Of a stretch of 47,250 nucleotides of DNA, positions 16,213 through 24,753 are shown piece by piece; the stretch's first letter is position 1, and every line of letters starts with the position of its first letter. The position numbers and the translations under genes are program-made. Origin of the DNA: a virus. Where the stretch lies: positions 1-47,250 of the IMG/VR virus record IMGVR_UViG_3300025869_000025; one strand, written 5' to 3'. The notes beneath the pieces were generated by a model, which saw only the letters and a program-made list of their open reading frames with translations, ran no database searches and had not been told where the DNA came from.

Positions 16213-17172
16213 ATGAGTTTATTAAAAGAAAGAGAATACTATAAGCCTTTTCAATATCCTTGGGCATTTGAGAACTATAAGAAACAACAACAAATGCATT
16301 GGCTACCTGAAGAAGTACCATTACAAGATGATATAAAGGATTATAAAGAAAAACTAAGTGAAGGTGAAAGGACATTGCTAGACAATATCTTTAAGTTTTT
16401 CACACAAGCAGATGTAGACGTATGTGGAGGCTATGCCCACCATTACTTGCCTACATTTAAACAACCAGAAGTAAGAATGATGTTAGTTAGTTATGCTGCT
16501 ATGGAAGCAGTACACCAAGAAGCATATTCCCTTCTACTAGAAACTTTAGGTAAGTCGGAAGATATGTACCAAGAGTTTTTTGATATCAATGCTATGATGG
16601 AGAAACATGAATATCTACAAGATTTCGGTATGAACACTCCATATGATATGGCAAAGACAATGGCAGTATATAGTGCATTTACAGAAGGAGTACAGTTATT
16701 TAGTAGCTTTGCGATTCTTCTAAACTACCCACGACATAACTTGATGAAAGGAATGGGACAGATTGTTACATGGAGTATTCGTGATGAATCATTACATGTA
16801 GAAGGTTTGTCAAAACTATTTAGAACTTTTATTTCAGAGAATCCTGAGTTATGGACTGATAAGTTAAAGTACGAAATATACTGTGCTGCAGAAAAGACAG
16901 TAGAGTTAGAAGATAACTTTATTGATATTTGTTTTGATAAAGCAGATATACCAGATTTGACAGCAAAAGAAGTCAAGGAATATATTAGATATATTGCTGA
17001 CAGAAGGTTATTAGGTATCGGTATGAAGAAAATATTTCATAGTACAGATAATCCTTTACCTTGGATTGACATGCAAGTCAATGCAGTTGAGCATACCAAC
17101 TTTTTTGAAAACCGTGCTACCGAGTATGCTAAGGCTAGTACACAAGGCAATTGGCAGGATGTATTTAAATGA
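16213..17172 (+). CDS. nrdB: Class I ribonucleotide reductase, radical-generating subunit
   Basis: A 319-residue NrdB-type subunit. The dimetal ligands can be read as D67 (TQADVDV), E98 and H101 (MEAVH), E158 (TEGV), E192 and H195 (RDESLH). The candidate radical tyrosine Y105 sits seven residues after E98, the E. coli NrdB spacing. All ligands and the tyrosine are present, so this looks like a conventional tyrosyl-radical class I enzyme rather than a metal-free or tyrosine-less variant. It begins directly after the NrdA stop and overlaps the next small gene by ATGA. The C-terminal tail (QGNWQDVFK) should dock on NrdA. Confidence 0.96.
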   Translation: MSLLKEREYYKPFQYPWAFENYKKQQQMHWLPEEVPLQDDIKDYKEKLSEGERTLLDNIFKFFTQADVDVCGGYAHHYLPTFKQPEVRMMLVSYAAMEAVHQEAYSLLLETLGKSEDMYQEFFDINAMMEKHEYLQDFGMNTPYDMAKTMAVYSAFTEGVQLFSSFAILLNYPRHNLMKGMGQIVTWSIRDESLHVEGLSKLFRTFISENPELWTDKLKYEIYCAAEKTVELEDNFIDICFDKADIPDLTAKEVKEYIRYIADRRLLGIGMKKIFHSTDNPLPWIDMQVNAVEHTNFFENRATEYAKASTQGNWQDVFK

Positions 17173-17375
17173 GTTCAGAATTACCTACACAAACAATCAC
17201 TATCGATGAAACCTCGTATGATGTATCAGCATTATCTAAAGAACAACAAAGTATTGTTAATGCAATAAACAAGTGCGATATCGATTTAGAAGATTATAAG
17301 CACAAGATGGCTATTACACAAACGGCTAGACAGGCGTATGTTAATGATCTTGGCGAACAATTAAAGGAAGACTAA
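17169..17375 (+). CDS. Small conserved protein (DUF6447-like)
   Basis: A 68-residue protein with two parts: a short beta-like start (TITIDETSYDVSALS) and a long helix running through EQQSIVNAINKCDIDLEDYKHKMAITQTARQAY. The pattern 'I-D-G/E-x-x-Y-x-h-x-x-L-S, then a coiled helix with h-A-x-x-QTAR-x-AY' is one I associate with the DUF6447 proteins common in T4-like cyanophages. Function unknown. It is sandwiched between nrdB (ATGA overlap) and the GT8-like gene (TAATG overlap). Confidence 0.75.
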   Translation: MSSELPTQTITIDETSYDVSALSKEQQSIVNAINKCDIDLEDYKHKMAITQTARQAYVNDLGEQLKED

Positions 17376-18019
17376 TGAAGATATTCGTAGGATATGAAAG
17401 TGAATATCCCGAAATGTTTGAAGTGTGTAAGGCATCAATCTTACGATTTAATCCTACACATGAAGTTATACCTTTAATTACATCAGAGTTGGAGGAACAA
17501 GGAATCTACACTAGAGAAGAAAAAGGAAATACTGAATTTGCTTTTACTAGATTTCTTGTACCACTTCTCTCTAATTATATGGGATATTCTTTATTCTGTG
17601 ATGGCGACTTTCTATGGAGATGTGATCCGCAAGAAATAACTCATTTTAAAAAGAATAATGATTCTGTTATGTGTGTACAACACGCAGAATTAATGTTTGA
17701 CCAGTACACAAAAATGCACGATAAACTAAACAAACCTTATAAGAAAAAATATTGGTCATCTTTAATGTATTTTAATAATGCAGAATGTAAAATGTTAAAT
17801 AAGTGGTATGTAAACAATGCTGCTGCTAAACACTTACATGGGTTTACTTGGGCAAATGGAATAGGTTCTTTACCTGCTTCCTATAATGCTTTAGTAAATT
17901 ATTATGACTTTGGTGAGAGAGCTAAAGGAGTACATTTTACAGATGGCGGACCATGGATGGGTATAAACGACCATGAGCAATATTGTAAAGAATGGACAGA
18001 CATATATAATTCATTATAA
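17375..18019 (+). CDS. GT8-like glycosyltransferase
   Basis: A 214-residue GT-A transferase. It starts with KIFVGYESEYPE, followed by an FAFTRFLVPLL helix that packs on the donor site, and YSLFCD76GD78FLWRCDP, a DxD-type metal motif as in family 8. A C-terminal HFTDGGPW supplies the third metal-ligand histidine expected for GT8. The donor sugar is unknown. It opens a run of four overlapping genes (this one, a radical SAM enzyme, an SDR-like protein and a GT29-like protein) that looks like a glycan biosynthesis module attached to the nrd block. Confidence 0.85.
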   Translation: MKIFVGYESEYPEMFEVCKASILRFNPTHEVIPLITSELEEQGIYTREEKGNTEFAFTRFLVPLLSNYMGYSLFCDGDFLWRCDPQEITHFKKNNDSVMCVQHAELMFDQYTKMHDKLNKPYKKKYWSSLMYFNNAECKMLNKWYVNNAAAKHLHGFTWANGIGSLPASYNALVNYYDFGERAKGVHFTDGGPWMGINDHEQYCKEWTDIYNSL

Positions 18020-18936
18020 TGAGAAACATACCTGTAGTAGCAGTAGACCAGTATGACTTTCTAGCACACAGACGAGAGCAGGAAAAGAAACATTGGGCAA
18101 AAAAGAATAACCTAACAGAGTTAGATTCGATTCTTACTGTTGAAATAAATACTACAGAGTTATGTAATAGAACTTGTGTCTTTTGTCCGAGACACGACCC
18201 AAAAGTATTTCCAAATAGAAACTTGCATCTTACCATAAAAGGAGCCGAGACAATAGGTCTTGAACTAGGTAAGGCAGGTTTTAGTGGAAAAATATCATTG
18301 AGTGGATTTGGAGAAAATTTACTCAACCCAAATTTCAGAGAGATAGTTCATATCTTTCGACACACAGTTCCATTAGCAACTTTAGAGTGTAACACTAATG
18401 GCGACAAACTTACCCAAACATATGCAGAAGAACTATTTGAATATAGTGGATTAGATTTAATTTACATAAATCTTTATGATGGCGTAGAGCAAATGACTCA
18501 TTTCGATAAAGTTATGAAAAATATACCTGAAGAAAAGTACAAGTATCGTATGCATTGGGGAGATTTTGAGAACCATGGATTATTACTTAACAACCGTAGC
18601 GGGGTCATCGATTGGGTAGGTATAGAAGAATCTAATGTGGCTTCTTTAAAAGGTAAACCATGTCATTATCCTTTCTATAAAATGTTCGTAGACTGGAATG
18701 GAGATGTTCTATTTTGTTCAAACGACTGGGGAAGGGAACATGTTGTGGGAAATTTACTACAAGATACATTACACAATGTATGGTTTGGTAAACCTATGAC
18801 AAAAATTCGTAAAAAATTAATAAAAGGAGATAGGTCACACAGCCCTTGCAATAAGTGTAGTGTAGACGGTTCTCTGTTTGGAAAAGAATCTTTCAATCTA
18901 GTAAAGGAGTACTATGAAAATCGCAGTAACAGGTAG
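18019..18936 (+). CDS. Radical SAM enzyme with SPASM-type C-terminus
   Basis: A 305-residue radical SAM protein. The [4Fe-4S] motif is C49-NRT-C53-VF-C56 (CxxxCxxC) after the strand LTVEINTT. SGFGENLLNPN follows in the place of the GGE/GEP segment. The C-terminal region GKPCHYPF...DWNGDVLFCSNDWG...SPCNKC has the cysteine pattern and 'hydrophobic-D-x-x-G-x-hxxC' strand of SPASM/twitch domains, which bind auxiliary clusters. Such enzymes modify peptides, proteins or sugars by radical chemistry. The glycosyltransferase neighbours on both sides suggest a carbohydrate or fibre-linked substrate (inference). It starts at a TAATG junction. Confidence 0.9.
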   Translation: MRNIPVVAVDQYDFLAHRREQEKKHWAKKNNLTELDSILTVEINTTELCNRTCVFCPRHDPKVFPNRNLHLTIKGAETIGLELGKAGFSGKISLSGFGENLLNPNFREIVHIFRHTVPLATLECNTNGDKLTQTYAEELFEYSGLDLIYINLYDGVEQMTHFDKVMKNIPEEKYKYRMHWGDFENHGLLLNNRSGVIDWVGIEESNVASLKGKPCHYPFYKMFVDWNGDVLFCSNDWGREHVVGNLLQDTLHNVWFGKPMTKIRKKLIKGDRSHSPCNKCSVDGSLFGKESFNLVKEYYENRSNR

Positions 18937-19417
18937 CAGTAAATTAGCAAATTGTATACAAGGTAATAAAATAAGAGTAGAGTTTGGGGCAGATTGGTCA
19001 CAGTATGATGTATTTGTAAACAATGCTCATGTAGAGTGGGAACAGTGTAGACTTCTCGAAGAAGTATACGAGGTATGGAAAGATGATGAAACTAAAACAA
19101 TAGTTAATATTTCGTCAAGAGCCCATCAACCTAATATATCTAAAGGATATAAGTACGCCGCACAAAAAGCCGCTCTAAATCATATGGCAACTAACTTAAA
19201 TTATAACAGTGATGCCAAGTGTAGAATTGCTACAATCAACTTTGGGTTATTAGAGTCTTCAATACATTCAAGTATCTCATATGAGAGAGCAGGTGAGTGG
19301 GTAGATTGGGTGATAAAAAACTCAGACATTACTGAAATAACAATTGAAAATCCTGCAAATTATATCCAAATTCAAAATGAAAAAGAAATCGCTAGAAGTT
19401 TAGGATTGAAGTCATGA
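18914..19417 (+). CDS. Reduced short-chain dehydrogenase/reductase-like protein
   Basis: A 167-residue protein that keeps the SDR skeleton in shortened form: KIAVTGSSKLA (nucleotide-binding turn), VFVNNA (the NNAG position), TIVNISSRA (catalytic Ser at 67/68), and Y81-AAQ-K85 (the YxxxK active site). The classical TGxxxGxG glycine pattern is degraded to TGSSKLA, and the total length is about 80 residues below normal SDRs, mostly lost from the Rossmann helices after the first strand. It may still bind NAD(P), or be a non-enzymatic remnant. AAAGGAG precedes its ATG, inside the end of the radical SAM gene. Confidence 0.75.
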   Translation: MKIAVTGSSKLANCIQGNKIRVEFGADWSQYDVFVNNAHVEWEQCRLLEEVYEVWKDDETKTIVNISSRAHQPNISKGYKYAAQKAALNHMATNLNYNSDAKCRIATINFGLLESSIHSSISYERAGEWVDWVIKNSDITEITIENPANYIQIQNEKEIARSLGLKS

Positions 19418-20040
19418 TGGGACGAGTAATATTAGTAGGAAATTCAGTAGAATTACTTCAACACGAGTATGGCTCATATATTGACAGTTTTGACACAATT
19501 GTTAGATTCGGAAAAGGCATACCTACAGATGAAAATTTTGAACAGATAGGTAAAAAAACTGATGTATGGATTACAGGTTTCTTAAGGCAGAAGCATTATA
19601 CTAGGTTTAAAAATGTTAAAATATTATTTAATCGCTGTAGAATACACATGAACATAGAGCCAAAGTCTCCTATGCTACTTCCAGAGTATGAAGTTATGTT
19701 CACAGATAAAGAAATACTAGAAATATTTGATTTAGTAGGAGCTACTAATGATAAGGCATTAGGTGACCGTCCTTCTGCAGGTTTTCTTGGTATATTGTAT
19801 TTTTTAAATAAGTGTGAATATGAGAGTATAGAAATCATAGGATTTGATTTTTTCTCTAAAAAGTTGCCTTTCTCTACAGGAGCAGACTATCCCGCTAGTT
19901 GGCATTTGCCAGTTAATAGTAAGGAGAGGAGTCCTCACAATCCAAATGAAAAACAAATAGTAAAAGAGTTAGCCGATAGAGGCAAAATTAAATGGAAAGT
20001 TCTTTCAGATTTGAAAGATGAGTTTCTAGATTTTTCCTAG
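19414..20040 (+). CDS. GT29 (sialyltransferase)-like protein
   Basis: A 208-residue protein resembling family 29 glycosyltransferases. The N-terminal L-motif-like stretch is RVILVGNSVELL...YIDSFDTIVRFGKG (3-35), followed by GKKTDVWITG. The S-motif-like part is RPSAGFLGILYFL (119-131), and near the C-terminus SPHNPNEKQ offers the His and Glu of the VS motif. GT29 proteins transfer sialic acid from CMP-sialate in eukaryotes. Bacterial and viral relatives with the same fold are poorly characterised, and the donor here is unknown. It is the last plus-strand gene and overlaps the convergent minus-strand gene by 15 nt. Confidence 0.8.
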   Translation: MMGRVILVGNSVELLQHEYGSYIDSFDTIVRFGKGIPTDENFEQIGKKTDVWITGFLRQKHYTRFKNVKILFNRCRIHMNIEPKSPMLLPEYEVMFTDKEILEIFDLVGATNDKALGDRPSAGFLGILYFLNKCEYESIEIIGFDFFSKKLPFSTGADYPASWHLPVNSKERSPHNPNEKQIVKELADRGKIKWKVLSDLKDEFLDFS

Positions 20041-20976
20041 TCTAAATCCTACTTTTACTAGTGACCCAGCTACGCGTTTCTGCTTAGTTGATTTTAACAT
20101 CAAAAGCTCATTATTTCGTGCATTTCGCATATTTATAGGTATACTAGGAATTAAGTTGGTATACATATCCCAAGGAAGCGAGAGCTGTATAGTTGTAGGT
20201 AACATTGTATAAGTTTTAAGTAACCACTTATGCTGTATATTTAATTGAAAACATTTTCTTAGCATTACATTATAATTAACACTATCAAGTGGTCCAAGAG
20301 CCTCTAGTTCTACTAAAATATCATTTTTACCATTCATGTATAGTGGCATAAATTTATGTTGATAACCTAATAATCTTGTCATAAACCATTCTGTACTTGC
20401 TTGGTAAAGAAGTCTATCAATCTTAGGCATATTAGGAGATCTTGATTCTAAGCCATCTTTTTCTGTAGGACAGAATAATTCTTCTAGTGAAAAAGTTTTT
20501 AACATGTCATAGTTAAATATCATAAACTCTGGATCAATATTATGTAGTTTAGTTGGTGAAATAGGTATTTGTAAAATTCTGTAAAAGTCTTTGAATCTTG
20601 GATGTTTTCTAAAGACTCTTTTATGAGATAAGAAAGAAACAGACCCCGCAAAGAATTCTTCATTAGGAAAATTATTAGACCATTTACCGTTTATTATATT
20701 GTTGCCACCTAGCCAAACTATTCTTTTATGTAGTCCACCTTTATCTTTCCAATGATCTAGTAAGTGACACATACATTTGGCTAAGTCTGACTTTCTCCAA
20801 AAAGATTCATATATTTTAACATTTGGAAAGTTATCTACTATCCATTCAATCGGAGCTTCATCCCAATCTTTATTATTTACATATAGATGTATTCTAACTT
20901 CTTCTTTATCGGGCAGGAGTGATGCTAAAGTAAACATACTCCATACTTTTTTATAGGGGTGTACTATTTCAATCAT
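20026..20976 (-). CDS. Putative glycosyltransferase-like protein, unknown family
   Basis: A 316-residue soluble protein without a motif I can name with confidence. The start MIEIVHPYKKVWSMFTLASLL, then IHLYVNNKDWD and a central RIVWLGGNNII resemble a GT-A-like Rossmann sheet, and its neighbours are transferase candidates. A DxD is not obvious. EWFMTRLLGYQHKFMPLY and the basic tail (STKQKRVAGSLVKVGFRLGK) are notable. It is the last gene of the minus-strand fibre unit and converges on the GT29-like gene. The role is inferred mainly from context; a fibre chaperone is an alternative. Confidence 0.6.
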   Translation of the reverse strand: MIEIVHPYKKVWSMFTLASLLPDKEEVRIHLYVNNKDWDEAPIEWIVDNFPNVKIYESFWRKSDLAKCMCHLLDHWKDKGGLHKRIVWLGGNNIINGKWSNNFPNEEFFAGSVSFLSHKRVFRKHPRFKDFYRILQIPISPTKLHNIDPEFMIFNYDMLKTFSLEELFCPTEKDGLESRSPNMPKIDRLLYQASTEWFMTRLLGYQHKFMPLYMNGKNDILVELEALGPLDSVNYNVMLRKCFQLNIQHKWLLKTYTMLPTTIQLSLPWDMYTNLIPSIPINMRNARNNELLMLKSTKQKRVAGSLVKVGFRLGKI

Positions 20977-21877
20977 TTTTTATCTTTTTAAATTCCCAAA
21001 AGTTATCTACATATGCCTGTAGTCTTTCTTCCGCATCTTCATCAAATTCAAATATTACTCCAGAGTTTCTTGCTGAGAGTATTTTACAAAGTGCAAGGTA
21101 CGATTGTCTGTTTGATACTGTATCATAAAAACTTTCGTAAGTTAATAAATTTTTCTCTCGTGCTTCTTTAGGAAAGCTAACAAGAGAAAGTCTTTTTCTG
21201 AGAAGGAGTGCAATTAATCCCATCTCACTATTTGGAGCAGTCGCTACTTCTTTACAATTAAGTAGTAGTTCATACCCACCTTCTTTTTTGTTTAGTACAT
21301 TTTCTGCACCAAATCTTCTTTTTAAATCGGCAATATAAACATGAGCAGTAATTGGATGAGGTTTTATTACATATCCTTCATCTACTAATTTCTTTACTCG
21401 TCTATAATCAATTACAGTTCCTTTACATAATAAATTACTACCTGGTAAGAAAATTACTTTATCATAAAATTCTGTATTCCATTGTAAATTATATTTATTC
21501 TGTAGTCCATTTACTATTTTTTCGATTCTTTCTTCATCAATCTTTATGTCTGAATTAGCAATCGCTTTAAATAATTTGGTGTTAATTTTTATAGAATTAA
21601 CTCTACAGTATATTCCTTTACCTAAAAAATCTGTATATAACCATTTTCTAATACTATGTAGTTCATTAGTATTAAACCATAAATCATATTCCCAGGCAAC
21701 TCCTTCACTAGTGTCAAGAACAAGTTTCTCTTTTAATTTAGCTAATCCATCTAAGTCATCTTTAGGTCTTGTACAAGAGCCTGACTTCATGAAGTGAGTT
21801 GGTATATCTCCCAATGACTCATTTATAGTCATTGCTACCAGTTTATTTTTCTTAACTGGCTTCTGCTTTGTTCTCAT
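20969..21877 (-). CDS. Putative GT-B/capsule-type transferase
   Basis: A 302-residue protein. The C-terminal half has YVIKPHPITAHVY followed about 35 residues later by VATAPNSEMGLIALLL. That is the 'K-P-H-P ... N-S-x-x-G-hxAL' pattern of GT-B-type surface-polysaccharide enzymes (Kps-like and CDP-glycerol glycerophosphotransferase-like proteins). The N-terminal half is less typical, starting with a basic leader, and the protein is shorter than most of these families. If it uses CDP-glycerol, the cytidylyltransferase at 4618 could supply it (inference). It overlaps the downstream gene by 8 nt and the upstream small gene by 26 nt. Confidence 0.6.
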   Translation of the reverse strand: MRTKQKPVKKNKLVAMTINESLGDIPTHFMKSGSCTRPKDDLDGLAKLKEKLVLDTSEGVAWEYDLWFNTNELHSIRKWLYTDFLGKGIYCRVNSIKINTKLFKAIANSDIKIDEERIEKIVNGLQNKYNLQWNTEFYDKVIFLPGSNLLCKGTVIDYRRVKKLVDEGYVIKPHPITAHVYIADLKRRFGAENVLNKKEGGYELLLNCKEVATAPNSEMGLIALLLRKRLSLVSFPKEAREKNLLTYESFYDTVSNRQSYLALCKILSARNSGVIFEFDEDAEERLQAYVDNFWEFKKIKND

Positions 21878-22019
21878 TTCTTAGCTTGAAAATTTCTTTT
21901 TCTAGGTTTTTTATTCTTTCTTCTGTTTCACCAATATGGTCAAAGACGGCTGCCATCATTGACTCTAATTTTTTATTAAGATAGTTTGGTGTAATATCTT
22001 CTTGTTCTGCTTTCATCAT
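21852..22019 (-). CDS. Small coiled-coil protein downstream of the Thr-rich fibre
   Basis: Read from the ATG one base after the stop of the Thr-rich fibre gene, the product has 55 residues; a second ATG follows immediately. Longer readings starting inside the fibre gene are possible but lack a reason. The helix FDHIGETEERIKNLEKEIFKLRNENKAEAS has leucine/isoleucine heptad spacing and high charge, so it is probably a coiled coil. Its position between fibre and transferases suggests a small assembly factor or chaperone, but nothing in the sequence proves this. A GGAG lies about eleven bases before the start. Confidence 0.6.
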   Translation of the reverse strand: MMKAEQEDITPNYLNKKLESMMAAVFDHIGETEERIKNLEKEIFKLRNENKAEAS

Positions 22020-22020
22020 A

Positions 22021-24753
22021 TTAAGAATCGCTCCATTGTGAGCCATCCCAATAAGATAATCCAAAGTCTGCTAGACTCGCAACTTCGGTATCAAAAATTG
22101 TACCTGCTTGGGAGGCGGTTATTCTTTCAAATACTGTTGTTGTCGTATCGAAAGTTGTTGTTGTTAAGTGGTCAGTTGTTCTGTTTGTTTCTGTTGCTCT
22201 AGTTGTGGAGATAGTAGTTGTTGTTGTTCTATCTGTTCCAAAAGTAGTAGTCCTAGTTGTTTCAAAAGTGGTTGTAGTTCCAAATGTAGTTGTTCTACTT
22301 GTTTGAGTAGATTGACTTGTTTCAAAAGTACTTGTTGTTGTTCTGCTTGAACCAGTTGTTCTACTAGAGGCTGTGCTTCTATCTGTATCAAATGCTGTTG
22401 TTGTTTCTCTGCTTGAAGCTGTTGATCTAGTTGTAACTGTTCCCTGTGAAGTCTCAAACGTTGTGGTTGTAGCTCTACTTGAAGCTGTTGACCTAGCTGT
22501 ATTAAATGTTGTTGTTGTAGAGTGAGATGTTCCAGTAGTTCTAGAAGATGCTCTCGAAGTAATATAAGCAGTTTCGTAAGCTGTAGATTGACTAGTGTTT
22601 GTACTTCTACTTGTGTTTGTAGTTTGTGTAGTATTCGTACCTCTTGCAGTATTCGTACTTCTTGCAGTAATATATGAACTAATAGTAGCGAATGTTGTAT
22701 TATCAATATATGCTGTACTAGTAGCAAATGTAGTTGCTGTATTTGTAGCCTGAGTAGTATTAGTACTTCTACTTGTGTTTGTAGCTTGAGTAGTATTCGT
22801 ACTTCTGCTTGTTCCAAATGATGTATTATTTGTAAACGCTGTATTATTTGTAAAGCCAGTACTTCTACTTGTGTTTGTGGCTTGAGAAGTATTTGTACTT
22901 CTACTTGTACCAAATGCTGTATTATCAATATAGGCTGTTACTGTATTAGTATTTCTAGCTGTATTTGTAGCCTGAGTAGTATTAGTACTTCTTGATGTGT
23001 TTGTAGCTTGAGTAGTATTCGTACTTCTACTCGTACCAAACGCTGTATTATCAATATACGCTGTAGTTCTAGAAGTGTTTGTATTTCTACTCGTACCAAA
23101 CGCTGTATTATCAATATACGCTGTTATTCTACTAGTATTAGTATTTCTAGAGGTATTATTTGTAAATCCTGTACCTCTAGAAGTATTAGTATTTCTAGAG
23201 GTATTATTTGTAAATCCTGTGCTATTTGTAAATCCTGTAGCTCTACTTGTATTATTTGTAAATCCTGTAGAGTTTGTAAAGCCAGTACTTCTTGAACCTG
23301 CTGTATTGTTTGTAAAGCCAGTTGACCTTGATGTATTATTAGATGCAGTATAGAATTGTGTTCCACCTTCTGGGTCAAAGTTATAATCAATGTATACAGT
23401 TATGTAAATAGTAGTTCTAGAAGTGTTTGTTGAAACGGCAATTGCTGTGTTTCTGGAAGTGTTCGTATTTCTAGCAGTGTTGGTTGCAAAAGCGGTGTTT
23501 CTAGCAGTATTAGTATTTCTAGCTGTATTTGTAGCAAAACTTGTAGAGTTTGTAAACGCTGTATTTCTTGCAGTATTTGTAGCAAAACTTGTAGAGTTAG
23601 TAAATCCTGTACTTCTACTTGTATTTGTTGCCTGCGTAGTATTATACGCAGTAGAGTTTGTAAAAGCGGTGTTTCTACTTGTGTTTGTTGCTTGTGTAGT
23701 AGTATAAGCTGTTATAGTAGCAAATGTTGTATTGTCAATATAAGCTGTTGTAGTAGCAAATGTTGTGTTATCAATATATGCTGTTGACGTATTAGTATTT
23801 CTAGAAGTATTGGTTGCCTGCGTAGTAGTATAAGCTGTTATAGTAGCAAATGTTGTATTGTCAATATATGCAGTATCTCTAGCTGTGTTAGTACTTCTTG
23901 CTGTATTTGTTGATTGTGTAGTAGCATACGCTGTTATAGTAGCAAATGATGTATTATCAATATATGCTGTTGTTGTTGCAAATGTAGTAGTAGTACCAGT
24001 TGTTTGTGTTGTGTTCGTGCTTCTAGACGTATTTGTTGCTTGTGTAGTATTTGTGCTTACTGTTGTTCCAACTGCTGTATTATCAGTATATGCTGTCGAT
24101 GTAATAAATGTTGTTGTATCTTCGTAAGCAGTTGTTGTTGCAAAAGATGTGTTTCTGCTAGTACCTATTGTTGTATCAAAAGATGTTATGTATGCAGTTG
24201 TAGTATTAAATGCTGTAGTTGTACTTTTACTTGTATTAAATGTTGTAGTTGTAGTAAAGGCCGTTGTAGTCGACTGCGAAGTATTAAATGTTGTTGTTGT
24301 ATTAAATGTCGTAGTTGTAGTATACGCTGTCGTCGTACCTTGTGAAGTTGTAAAAGTAGTTGTAGTTGTAAACGCTGTAGTTGTATTAAAAGCAGTTGTA
24401 GTACTGGTTGTTGTATTGAATACTGTTGTTGTTGCAAATGTAGTTGTTCTACTTGTGTCTGTTGTTCTGCTAGTGTCGAAAGTTGTACTTCTACTTGTAT
24501 CAAAAGTTGTTGTAGTATTGTAGTCGGTATCAAAAGTAGTAGTCGTATTGAATACTGTATTTTGTACACCTGATATAGTACTAGTAGTTGTAGCAGTCTG
24601 TCTTGTAGTCGAGTGCGTAGCAGTAAACGGCCCAGCTAAAGTTCCGCCATCATTGACGTAAACTTCGTTGACACGACGAATTGTTCCACTGTCGTTGACA
24701 GCGATAAATCGAACAGTCCGTAGTGTGCCGGAATCGTTTACAAATATTGCCAT
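22021..24753 (-). CDS. Giant Thr/Asn/Ser-repeat fibre protein
   Basis: A 910-residue protein, over half of it Thr, Asn and Ser. Residues 1-40 hold three copies of a VND(S/G)GT unit, a module I know from marine phage structural proteins. From about residue 45 to 870 the chain is built from six-residue units such as TTTAFN and TAYIDN, separated by short SRST, SQST or ATNTSR pieces. Aromatic residues recur at even spacings (6, 10, 14), as expected for beta strands with one aromatic face, for example a trimeric beta-solenoid. A unique island (about 448-471, DYNFDPEGGTQFY) interrupts the array. A non-repetitive C-terminal cap ends in LSYWDGSQW. NTS/NTT sequons are very frequent. Confidence 0.85.
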   Translation of the reverse strand: MAIFVNDSGTLRTVRFIAVNDSGTIRRVNEVYVNDGGTLAGPFTATHSTTRQTATTTSTISGVQNTVFNTTTTFDTDYNTTTTFDTSRSTTFDTSRTTDTSRTTTFATTTVFNTTTSTTTAFNTTTAFTTTTTFTTSQGTTTAYTTTTTFNTTTTFNTSQSTTTAFTTTTTFNTSKSTTTAFNTTTAYITSFDTTIGTSRNTSFATTTAYEDTTTFITSTAYTDNTAVGTTVSTNTTQATNTSRSTNTTQTTGTTTTFATTTAYIDNTSFATITAYATTQSTNTARSTNTARDTAYIDNTTFATITAYTTTQATNTSRNTNTSTAYIDNTTFATTTAYIDNTTFATITAYTTTQATNTSRNTAFTNSTAYNTTQATNTSRSTGFTNSTSFATNTARNTAFTNSTSFATNTARNTNTARNTAFATNTARNTNTSRNTAIAVSTNTSRTTIYITVYIDYNFDPEGGTQFYTASNNTSRSTGFTNNTAGSRSTGFTNSTGFTNNTSRATGFTNSTGFTNNTSRNTNTSRGTGFTNNTSRNTNTSRITAYIDNTAFGTSRNTNTSRTTAYIDNTAFGTSRSTNTTQATNTSRSTNTTQATNTARNTNTVTAYIDNTAFGTSRSTNTSQATNTSRSTGFTNNTAFTNNTSFGTSRSTNTTQATNTSRSTNTTQATNTATTFATSTAYIDNTTFATISSYITARSTNTARGTNTTQTTNTSRSTNTSQSTAYETAYITSRASSRTTGTSHSTTTTFNTARSTASSRATTTTFETSQGTVTTRSTASSRETTTAFDTDRSTASSRTTGSSRTTTSTFETSQSTQTSRTTTFGTTTTFETTRTTTFGTDRTTTTTISTTRATETNRTTDHLTTTTFDTTTTVFERITASQAGTIFDTEVASLADFGLSYWDGSQWSDS
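22180..24590 (-). repeat. Low-complexity coding repeat array of the Thr-rich fibre
   Basis: About 2.4 kb of imperfect direct repeats inside the fibre gene. On the plus strand they read as T/G-rich words such as TTCTACTTGTGTTTGTAG and TCAATATATGCTGTTGT with many near-identical copies. The best copies lie at 23140-23290 and 23440-23720. Long open frames on the opposite strand here are by-products of the composition and are not genes. Confidence 0.9.

Follow-up and report, generated by a model that had tools for sequence, protein, structure and literature searches.

A predicted O-glycosylation cassette in a marine phage and the recurrent pairing of its ORF6 transferase family with threonine-repeat proteins in unrelated phages

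Serine-rich repeat adhesins of the Fap1/GspB type are secreted bacterial proteins associated with the GtfA/GtfB transferases and an accessory Sec system. Among glycosyltransferases, the KpsC/WbbB and GT29 families use keto-sugar donors activated by cytidine monophosphate (CMP). Virion glycosylation is known in few phages and is rarely predictable from sequence. A described case is that of the mycobacteriophages (Freeman et al., 2023, cited in PMC12619734). Here, a gene cluster is described from a marine siphovirus, IMG/VR virus record IMGVR_UViG_3300025869_000025, of which the whole 47,250-base stretch analysed is termed the window. In this cluster a Thr-repeat fibre precedes open reading frame (ORF) 6, a predicted fibre-acting transferase. 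The body of the fibre is built on a PHI-x-T-x repeat, where PHI is F, Y, W, R, K or Q. At 50% identity, the ORF6 family falls into 10 clusters, drawn from Autographiviridae, T4-like and other phages, and a PHI-x-T-x repeat protein is paired with ORF6 in all 10, directly upstream in 9. Because this enzyme-fibre pairing recurs in unrelated phages, including laboratory-grown ones, such phages probably sugar-coat their own fibres, and the gene cluster is predicted with reasonable confidence to be a virion-protein O-glycosylation cassette. In keeping with a virion-protein glycosylation system, glycosyltransferase genes of this phage are linked to the gene of a predicted virion protein. An earlier sequence-only reading had proposed self-glycosylation of the fibre by either O- or N-linkage; the genomic evidence supports the proposal, with O-linkage predicted, and speaks against N-linkage. 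The genes of the window are as follows.

22021..24753, minus strand: Thr/Ser/Asn-repeat fibre of 910 amino acids (aa), predicted glycan acceptor (composition, PHI-x-T-x density)
21852..22019, minus strand: 55-aa coiled-coil ORF in the fibre/ORF6 gap (motif, codon-position substitutions)
20969..21877, minus strand: ORF6, GT-B-type glycosyltransferase, distantly like CMP-Kdo (3-deoxy-D-manno-oct-2-ulosonic acid) transferases of the KpsC/WbbB type (phrog_26179, AlphaFold2, Foldseek)
20026..20976, minus strand: ORF5, GT-A-fold glycosyltransferase-like protein (AlphaFold2, Foldseek)
19414..20040, plus strand: GT29 (sialyltransferase)-like protein (PF00777, match to the ST3Gal1 L-motif)
18914..19417, plus strand: short protein like short-chain dehydrogenases/reductases (SDR), accessory (Pfam, just below cut-off)
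18019..18936, plus strand: radical S-adenosylmethionine (SAM)/SPASM protein, accessory (Pfam cut-offs passed)
17375..18019, plus strand: GT8/GT24-like glycosyltransferase (phrog_28018, invariant DxD at D76 and D78)

Every ORF of the cluster was recovered where the sequence-only reading had placed it, and ORF6 and ORF5 do lie downstream of the fibre in the same orientation, as it had described. The fibre was also correctly called more than half Thr, Asn and Ser (T 36.8%, S 11.2%, N 9.9%; together 58%) and rich in sequons, with 58 N-x-S/T sites, 43 of them NTS or NTT. It consists of about 42 N-terminal aa of VNDSGT-type repeats, a PHI-x-T-x repeat body and a C-terminal FGLSYWDGSQW tail. Thr occupies the +2 position after F/Y/W/R/K/Q in 80% of cases, compared with 39% +/- 4% in shuffled sequences and 10-14% in the other fibres of the window, and by PHI-x-T-x density the fibre ranks first among the window's 232 ORFs. 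Self-identity is 0.34 at lag 6 and 0.36 at lag 16 but about 0.15 at odd lags, and repeat spacings in the body are even (4, 6, 10, 16 and 22). The regularity thus goes beyond composition, since residues recur at even spacings and PHI-x-T-x exceeds the shuffles. Such even spacings would suit an extended strand whose faces alternate. Complete relatives have fibres of 668 to 1621 aa, with Thr content steady at 35-40%; even in phages with ORF6 at least 97% identical, complete fibres range from 910 to 998 aa. In searches against cultured phages, neither the cluster region (megablast) nor the whole fibre (tblastn) found a match.

The pairing of ORF6 with PHI-x-T-x proteins was evident across phage groups. 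A same-strand PHI-x-T-x protein lies directly upstream of ORF6 in the Caulobacter phages Lullwater, Quill_5.2 and BL198 (Autographiviridae) and Cr30 (T4-like), in the Vibrio phages KVP40, VS2, D484, F86 and D479, and in the environmental contigs L267/L283, L254 and L274. The repeat protein is gp41 in Lullwater, with gp42 as the ORF6 homologue, AGS81089 in Cr30 and KVP40.0254 in KVP40. In the cultured phage DLP6, ORF6 is found at 1.8 kb, GT8 and GT29 at 116-117 kb and a baseplate-wedge protein at 151-155 kb; the C-terminal ~570 aa of the latter form a PHI-x-T-x arm, with repeats that look like those of the window type. ORF5 was not found in DLP6. Since these genes are unlinked and scattered, their co-presence cannot be explained by synteny. 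The acceptor as a virion protein is directly supported in DLP6, where it is a baseplate wedge subunit, and is predicted elsewhere. Genome-wide, the ORF6 neighbour is the top ORF for PHI-x-T-x density among 1614 in KVP40, 1135 in Cr30 and 392 in Lullwater, and the paired repeat protein was the top scorer in every ORF6-carrying whole genome tested. S-SCSM2R and ctDrO704 have a GT8 relative but neither ORF6 nor a comparable PHI-x-T-x ORF, and ORF6 is missing from the vicinity of proteins that join the N-terminal domain of the KVP40 protein to a different, non-Thr body. It is therefore ORF6 that the repeat follows, rather than GT8 or fibre anchors in general. When the KVP40 and Lullwater Thr proteins were used as queries, most matches were the proteins themselves or others sharing the N-terminal domain only. 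The check proposed by the sequence-only reading, whether the transferases co-occur with Thr-repeat fibres, thus gave a complete pairing in the window clade and a recurrent one in unrelated phages, so that the refuting outcome it had named, transferases never found with such a fibre, was not borne out.

An unlikely alternative is that the transferases remodel host surface glycans (lipopolysaccharide, capsule or teichoic-type polymers), for instance as a barrier to superinfection, and that a common host-surface theme accounts for their position near the fibre. ORF6 does resemble Kdo transferases whose targets are host glycolipids and O-antigen, and the S-SCSM2R GT8 relative occurs among KdsA/KdsB genes. 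However, this explanation does not predict that ORF6 should track PHI-x-T-x in ten clusters, with the neighbour ranking first genome-wide, and it leaves the retention of unlinked ORF6 and repeat in DLP6 unexplained.

Several of these genomes also have features of annotation and neighbourhood. The PHI-x-T-x ORFs of D484 (L239 4940-5491), F86 (L240 4840-5445) and D479 (L241 4906-5448) are missing from public annotation, perhaps skipped as low-complexity, and the VS2 genome has no annotation at all. The Quill_5.2 Thr-repeat gene (L237 3355-4001) seems split over two frames, by sequencing error or frameshift, and the annotated protein looks truncated. In DLP6, AAY80_265 (L243 26408-30274) is the T4-like baseplate-wedge protein whose C-terminal extension resembles the window fibre. 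Downstream of the ORF6 homologue, the Vibrio phages have a common block (KVP40.0257-0260, L236 6542-9707, and matching regions of L239-L241) coding for an unknown protein, a QueC-like protein (annotated as such in D484, F86 and D479), a nicotinamide phosphoribosyltransferase-like protein and, in most of them, a radical SAM protein. In the cyanophage S-SCSM2R (L004 6001-9526), the GT8 relative adjoins carbohydrate phosphorylase and KdsB/KdsA genes, which suggests a phage-encoded supply of CMP-Kdo.

Within the window's own phage group, viral contigs were scanned with ORF6, ORF5, GT29 and fibre queries and the loci dereplicated; counts refer to unique loci with enough contig to show each gene. 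Nearly every locus has the layout fibre > ORF6 > ORF5 > < GT29 < GT8. The Thr-rich fibre is immediately upstream of ORF6 in 72 of 72 loci, and ORF5 (75/75), GT29 (71/71) and GT8 (58/58) are equally constant. In the reverse direction, the fibre query also recovered ORF6, and the three Thr-rich ORFs without an adjacent ORF6 were all cut by contig ends. ORF5 and the GT29-like gene converge with a 15-base overlap at their stops, an arrangement shared by nearly all relatives.

The AlphaFold2 model of ORF6 (predicted local distance difference test, pLDDT, 86) has a GT-B fold whose nearest structural match is the CMP-Kdo transferase family (KpsC/WbbB): in Foldseek against the PDB, the 17 best matches were all Kdo transferases (KpsC, WbbB and one related), with a best E of 1.9e-4. 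The motifs KPHPxT and NSE are conserved, residues D65, K128, Y129, H174 and P175 are invariant (32/32), and KPHPxT and D65 are retained, with rare exceptions, between ORF6 lineages of just 21-30% identity. In the retaining CMP-Kdo transferases a nucleophilic Asp forms a Kdo adduct, and D65 is a candidate for that position. Scans of bacterial and archaeal genomes by conserved patterns found no ORF6.

The ORF5 model (pLDDT 90) best matched the GT-A glycosyltransferases UGGT, glycogenin and TarP (E 5e-6 to 1e-3), while sequence searches gave one non-significant match in the PDB and none among cultured phages (tblastn). The GT29-like assignment made earlier holds, with PF00777 scoring 36.4 bits (4.8e-9) against a curated cut-off of 23, over part of the model only; all 23 relatives also match this domain. 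Of the ST3Gal1 sialylmotifs, L is clear and S weak, and an invariant SWH and H175/E179 resemble motifs III and VS with varying spacing. In the GT8-like protein, PF01501 was detected in 7 of 20 relatives (best 2e-4) and not in the window protein, the DxD motif is invariant, and a PDB sequence search gave no match. Across 20-23 divergent members, the motifs of both GT29 and GT8 do not vary. Two of the four cluster transferases thus resemble users of CMP-keto-sugars, which would make such a sugar a candidate donor here.

A number of observations weigh against glycosylation of the fibre by this cluster. The TM-scores of ORF6 to Kdo transferases are about 0.4, a distant likeness, and profile comparison with E. 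coli KpsC and KpsS was not significant, with the KpsS alignment running across the HP and NS motifs. ORF5 has no evident DxD motif. The repeats of Cr30, L254 and L283 are weaker, with P(T at +2) of 0.33-0.41. The window-group loci also share a backbone, with nrdB in 37 of 37 and a J-like tail gene upstream in 31 of 32. The ~220 environmental loci were accordingly rejected as independent cases; as the module sits in one shared phage backbone, they represent approximately one lineage, their counts are not independent events, and synteny alone is weak evidence.

A non-catalytic role for ORF6, as a chaperone or assembly factor that reuses the GT-B fold with the other glycosyltransferases as passengers, is very unlikely. 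Genes downstream of fibres are commonly chaperones, the small coiled-coil ORF would suit an assembly role and the missing DxD of ORF5 fits; however, the persistence of KPHPxT and D65 between such divergent lineages, the invariant GT29 and GT8 motifs and the presence of GT8 and GT29 in DLP6 too all speak against this reading. Glycosylation of phage DNA bases in the T-even manner is highly improbable: phage glycosyltransferases are often DNA-modifying (PMC12619734), but no hydroxymethylated-base gene was recognised among the families searched in a non-exhaustive annotation, the nearest families of two of the enzymes use sugar acceptors, and the fibre pairing would be left unexplained.

Within the favoured reading, glycosylation of the virion protein, N-linkage was rejected. 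Sequons are frequent in the window clade only and are not conserved between lineages (0-4.4 per 100 aa in the others, 0 in Cr30), and no N-linked oligosaccharyltransferase or N-glycosyltransferase (NGT) was recognised among the cluster's genes. Gene content, conserved order and the ORF6/PHI-x-T-x pairing are observed directly, the folds are predicted, and from these we infer the following scheme. In the PHI-x-T-x body, Thr alternating at every second position with an aromatic residue, Arg, Lys or Gln would present a dense array of Thr hydroxyls. Within the infected cell, ORF6 would catalyse O-linked modification of this Thr (or Ser) array, either prior to assembly or while it is under way, and is probably the first or core transferase. 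In the window and DLP6 types, the GT8-like and GT29-like enzymes would then extend the glycan, joined by ORF5 in the window group, and the glycan end may be sialic-acid-like or Kdo-like. The coat might serve for shielding, protease resistance or receptor tuning. A further, tentative possibility is that ORF6 represents a new class of protein O-glycosyltransferase, Kdo-transferase-like, that moves a host CMP-keto-sugar directly onto the Thr of PHI-x-T-x. If so, ORF6 and PHI-x-T-x would be a dedicated enzyme-acceptor code common to unrelated phages.

The fibre/ORF6 gap is filled by a 55-aa coiled-coil ORF, 'MMKAEQEDITPNYLNKKLESMMAAVFDHIGETEERIKNLEKEIFKLRNENKAEAS', absent from the sequence-only reading. 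A motif search recovered it in 70 of 72 unique loci, and its substitutions favour third codon positions (1939/1218/3501 at positions 1, 2 and 3), so that it is very probably a genuine gene. Similar short ORFs occur in DLP6, L274, L267 and KVP40; in the KVP40 type and L267 the ORF stands between repeat protein and ORF6, as in the window. Its role may lie in assembly or recruitment. The radical SAM and SPASM identities proposed earlier both exceed Pfam cut-offs, and the SDR falls just short (26.0 against 26.6 bits); this pair is present in only 8 of 58 unique loci, so its inclusion in the glycosylation cluster was not upheld and it is regarded as optional. Another ORF not reported earlier, of 68 aa (MSSELPTQTITIDETSYDVSALSKEQQ...), lies at 17169-17375 on the plus strand between nrdB and the GT8 gene, overlapping the nrdB stop and abutting the GT8 start; it was too short to enter the ORF list used. 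Elsewhere in the window, a lambda-J-like siphovirus tail block occupies the minus strand, and replication genes and nrdA/nrdB the plus strand.

If the reading is correct, the ORF6/PHI-x-T-x pairing would offer a marker for glycosylated fibres and a ready acceptor motif, with cultured phages to serve as test systems. A role would also follow for phrog_26179 and phrog_30602, which are catalogued as of unknown function. Carriers of the pairing include Autographiviridae, KVP40 and other T4-like phages, and marine siphoviruses, which are frequent in the metagenomes searched. No report of a Thr-rich fibre paired with transferases was found in the open-licence papers searched, and in the DLP6 and Lullwater papers term searches turned up no mention of either glycosylation or threonine.

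Compared with known enzymes, ORF6 is like the KpsC/WbbB CMP-beta-Kdo transferases in its predicted GT-B fold, in all of its top Foldseek matches and in the HP motif, whereas KpsC/WbbB build capsule linkers or O-antigen and sequence similarity is below significance. The GT29-like protein shares with sialyltransferases such as ST3Gal1 an L-motif (VGNS...DxVxR), beside a weak S-motif (PSxG) and a similar H...E pair; at ~208 aa and with a partial Pfam match, it is a putative sialyltransferase. Compared by description, the cluster resembles the Fap1/GspB type in placing a low-complexity Ser/Thr repeat protein beside its own transferase set, but here the protein is a phage fibre with strict two-residue PHI/T alternation, and no GtfA/GtfB or accessory Sec was recognised. 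With the mycobacteriophage system it shares phage-encoded glycosyltransferases directed at the phage's own structural proteins, an activity that is predicted here. The mycobacteriophage targets are, according to PMC12619734, the C-termini of capsid and tail-tube proteins. The system described here differs in its predicted acceptor, a long Thr-repeat fibre, in its KpsC/WbbB-like enzyme and in the Gram-negative hosts of its cultured members.

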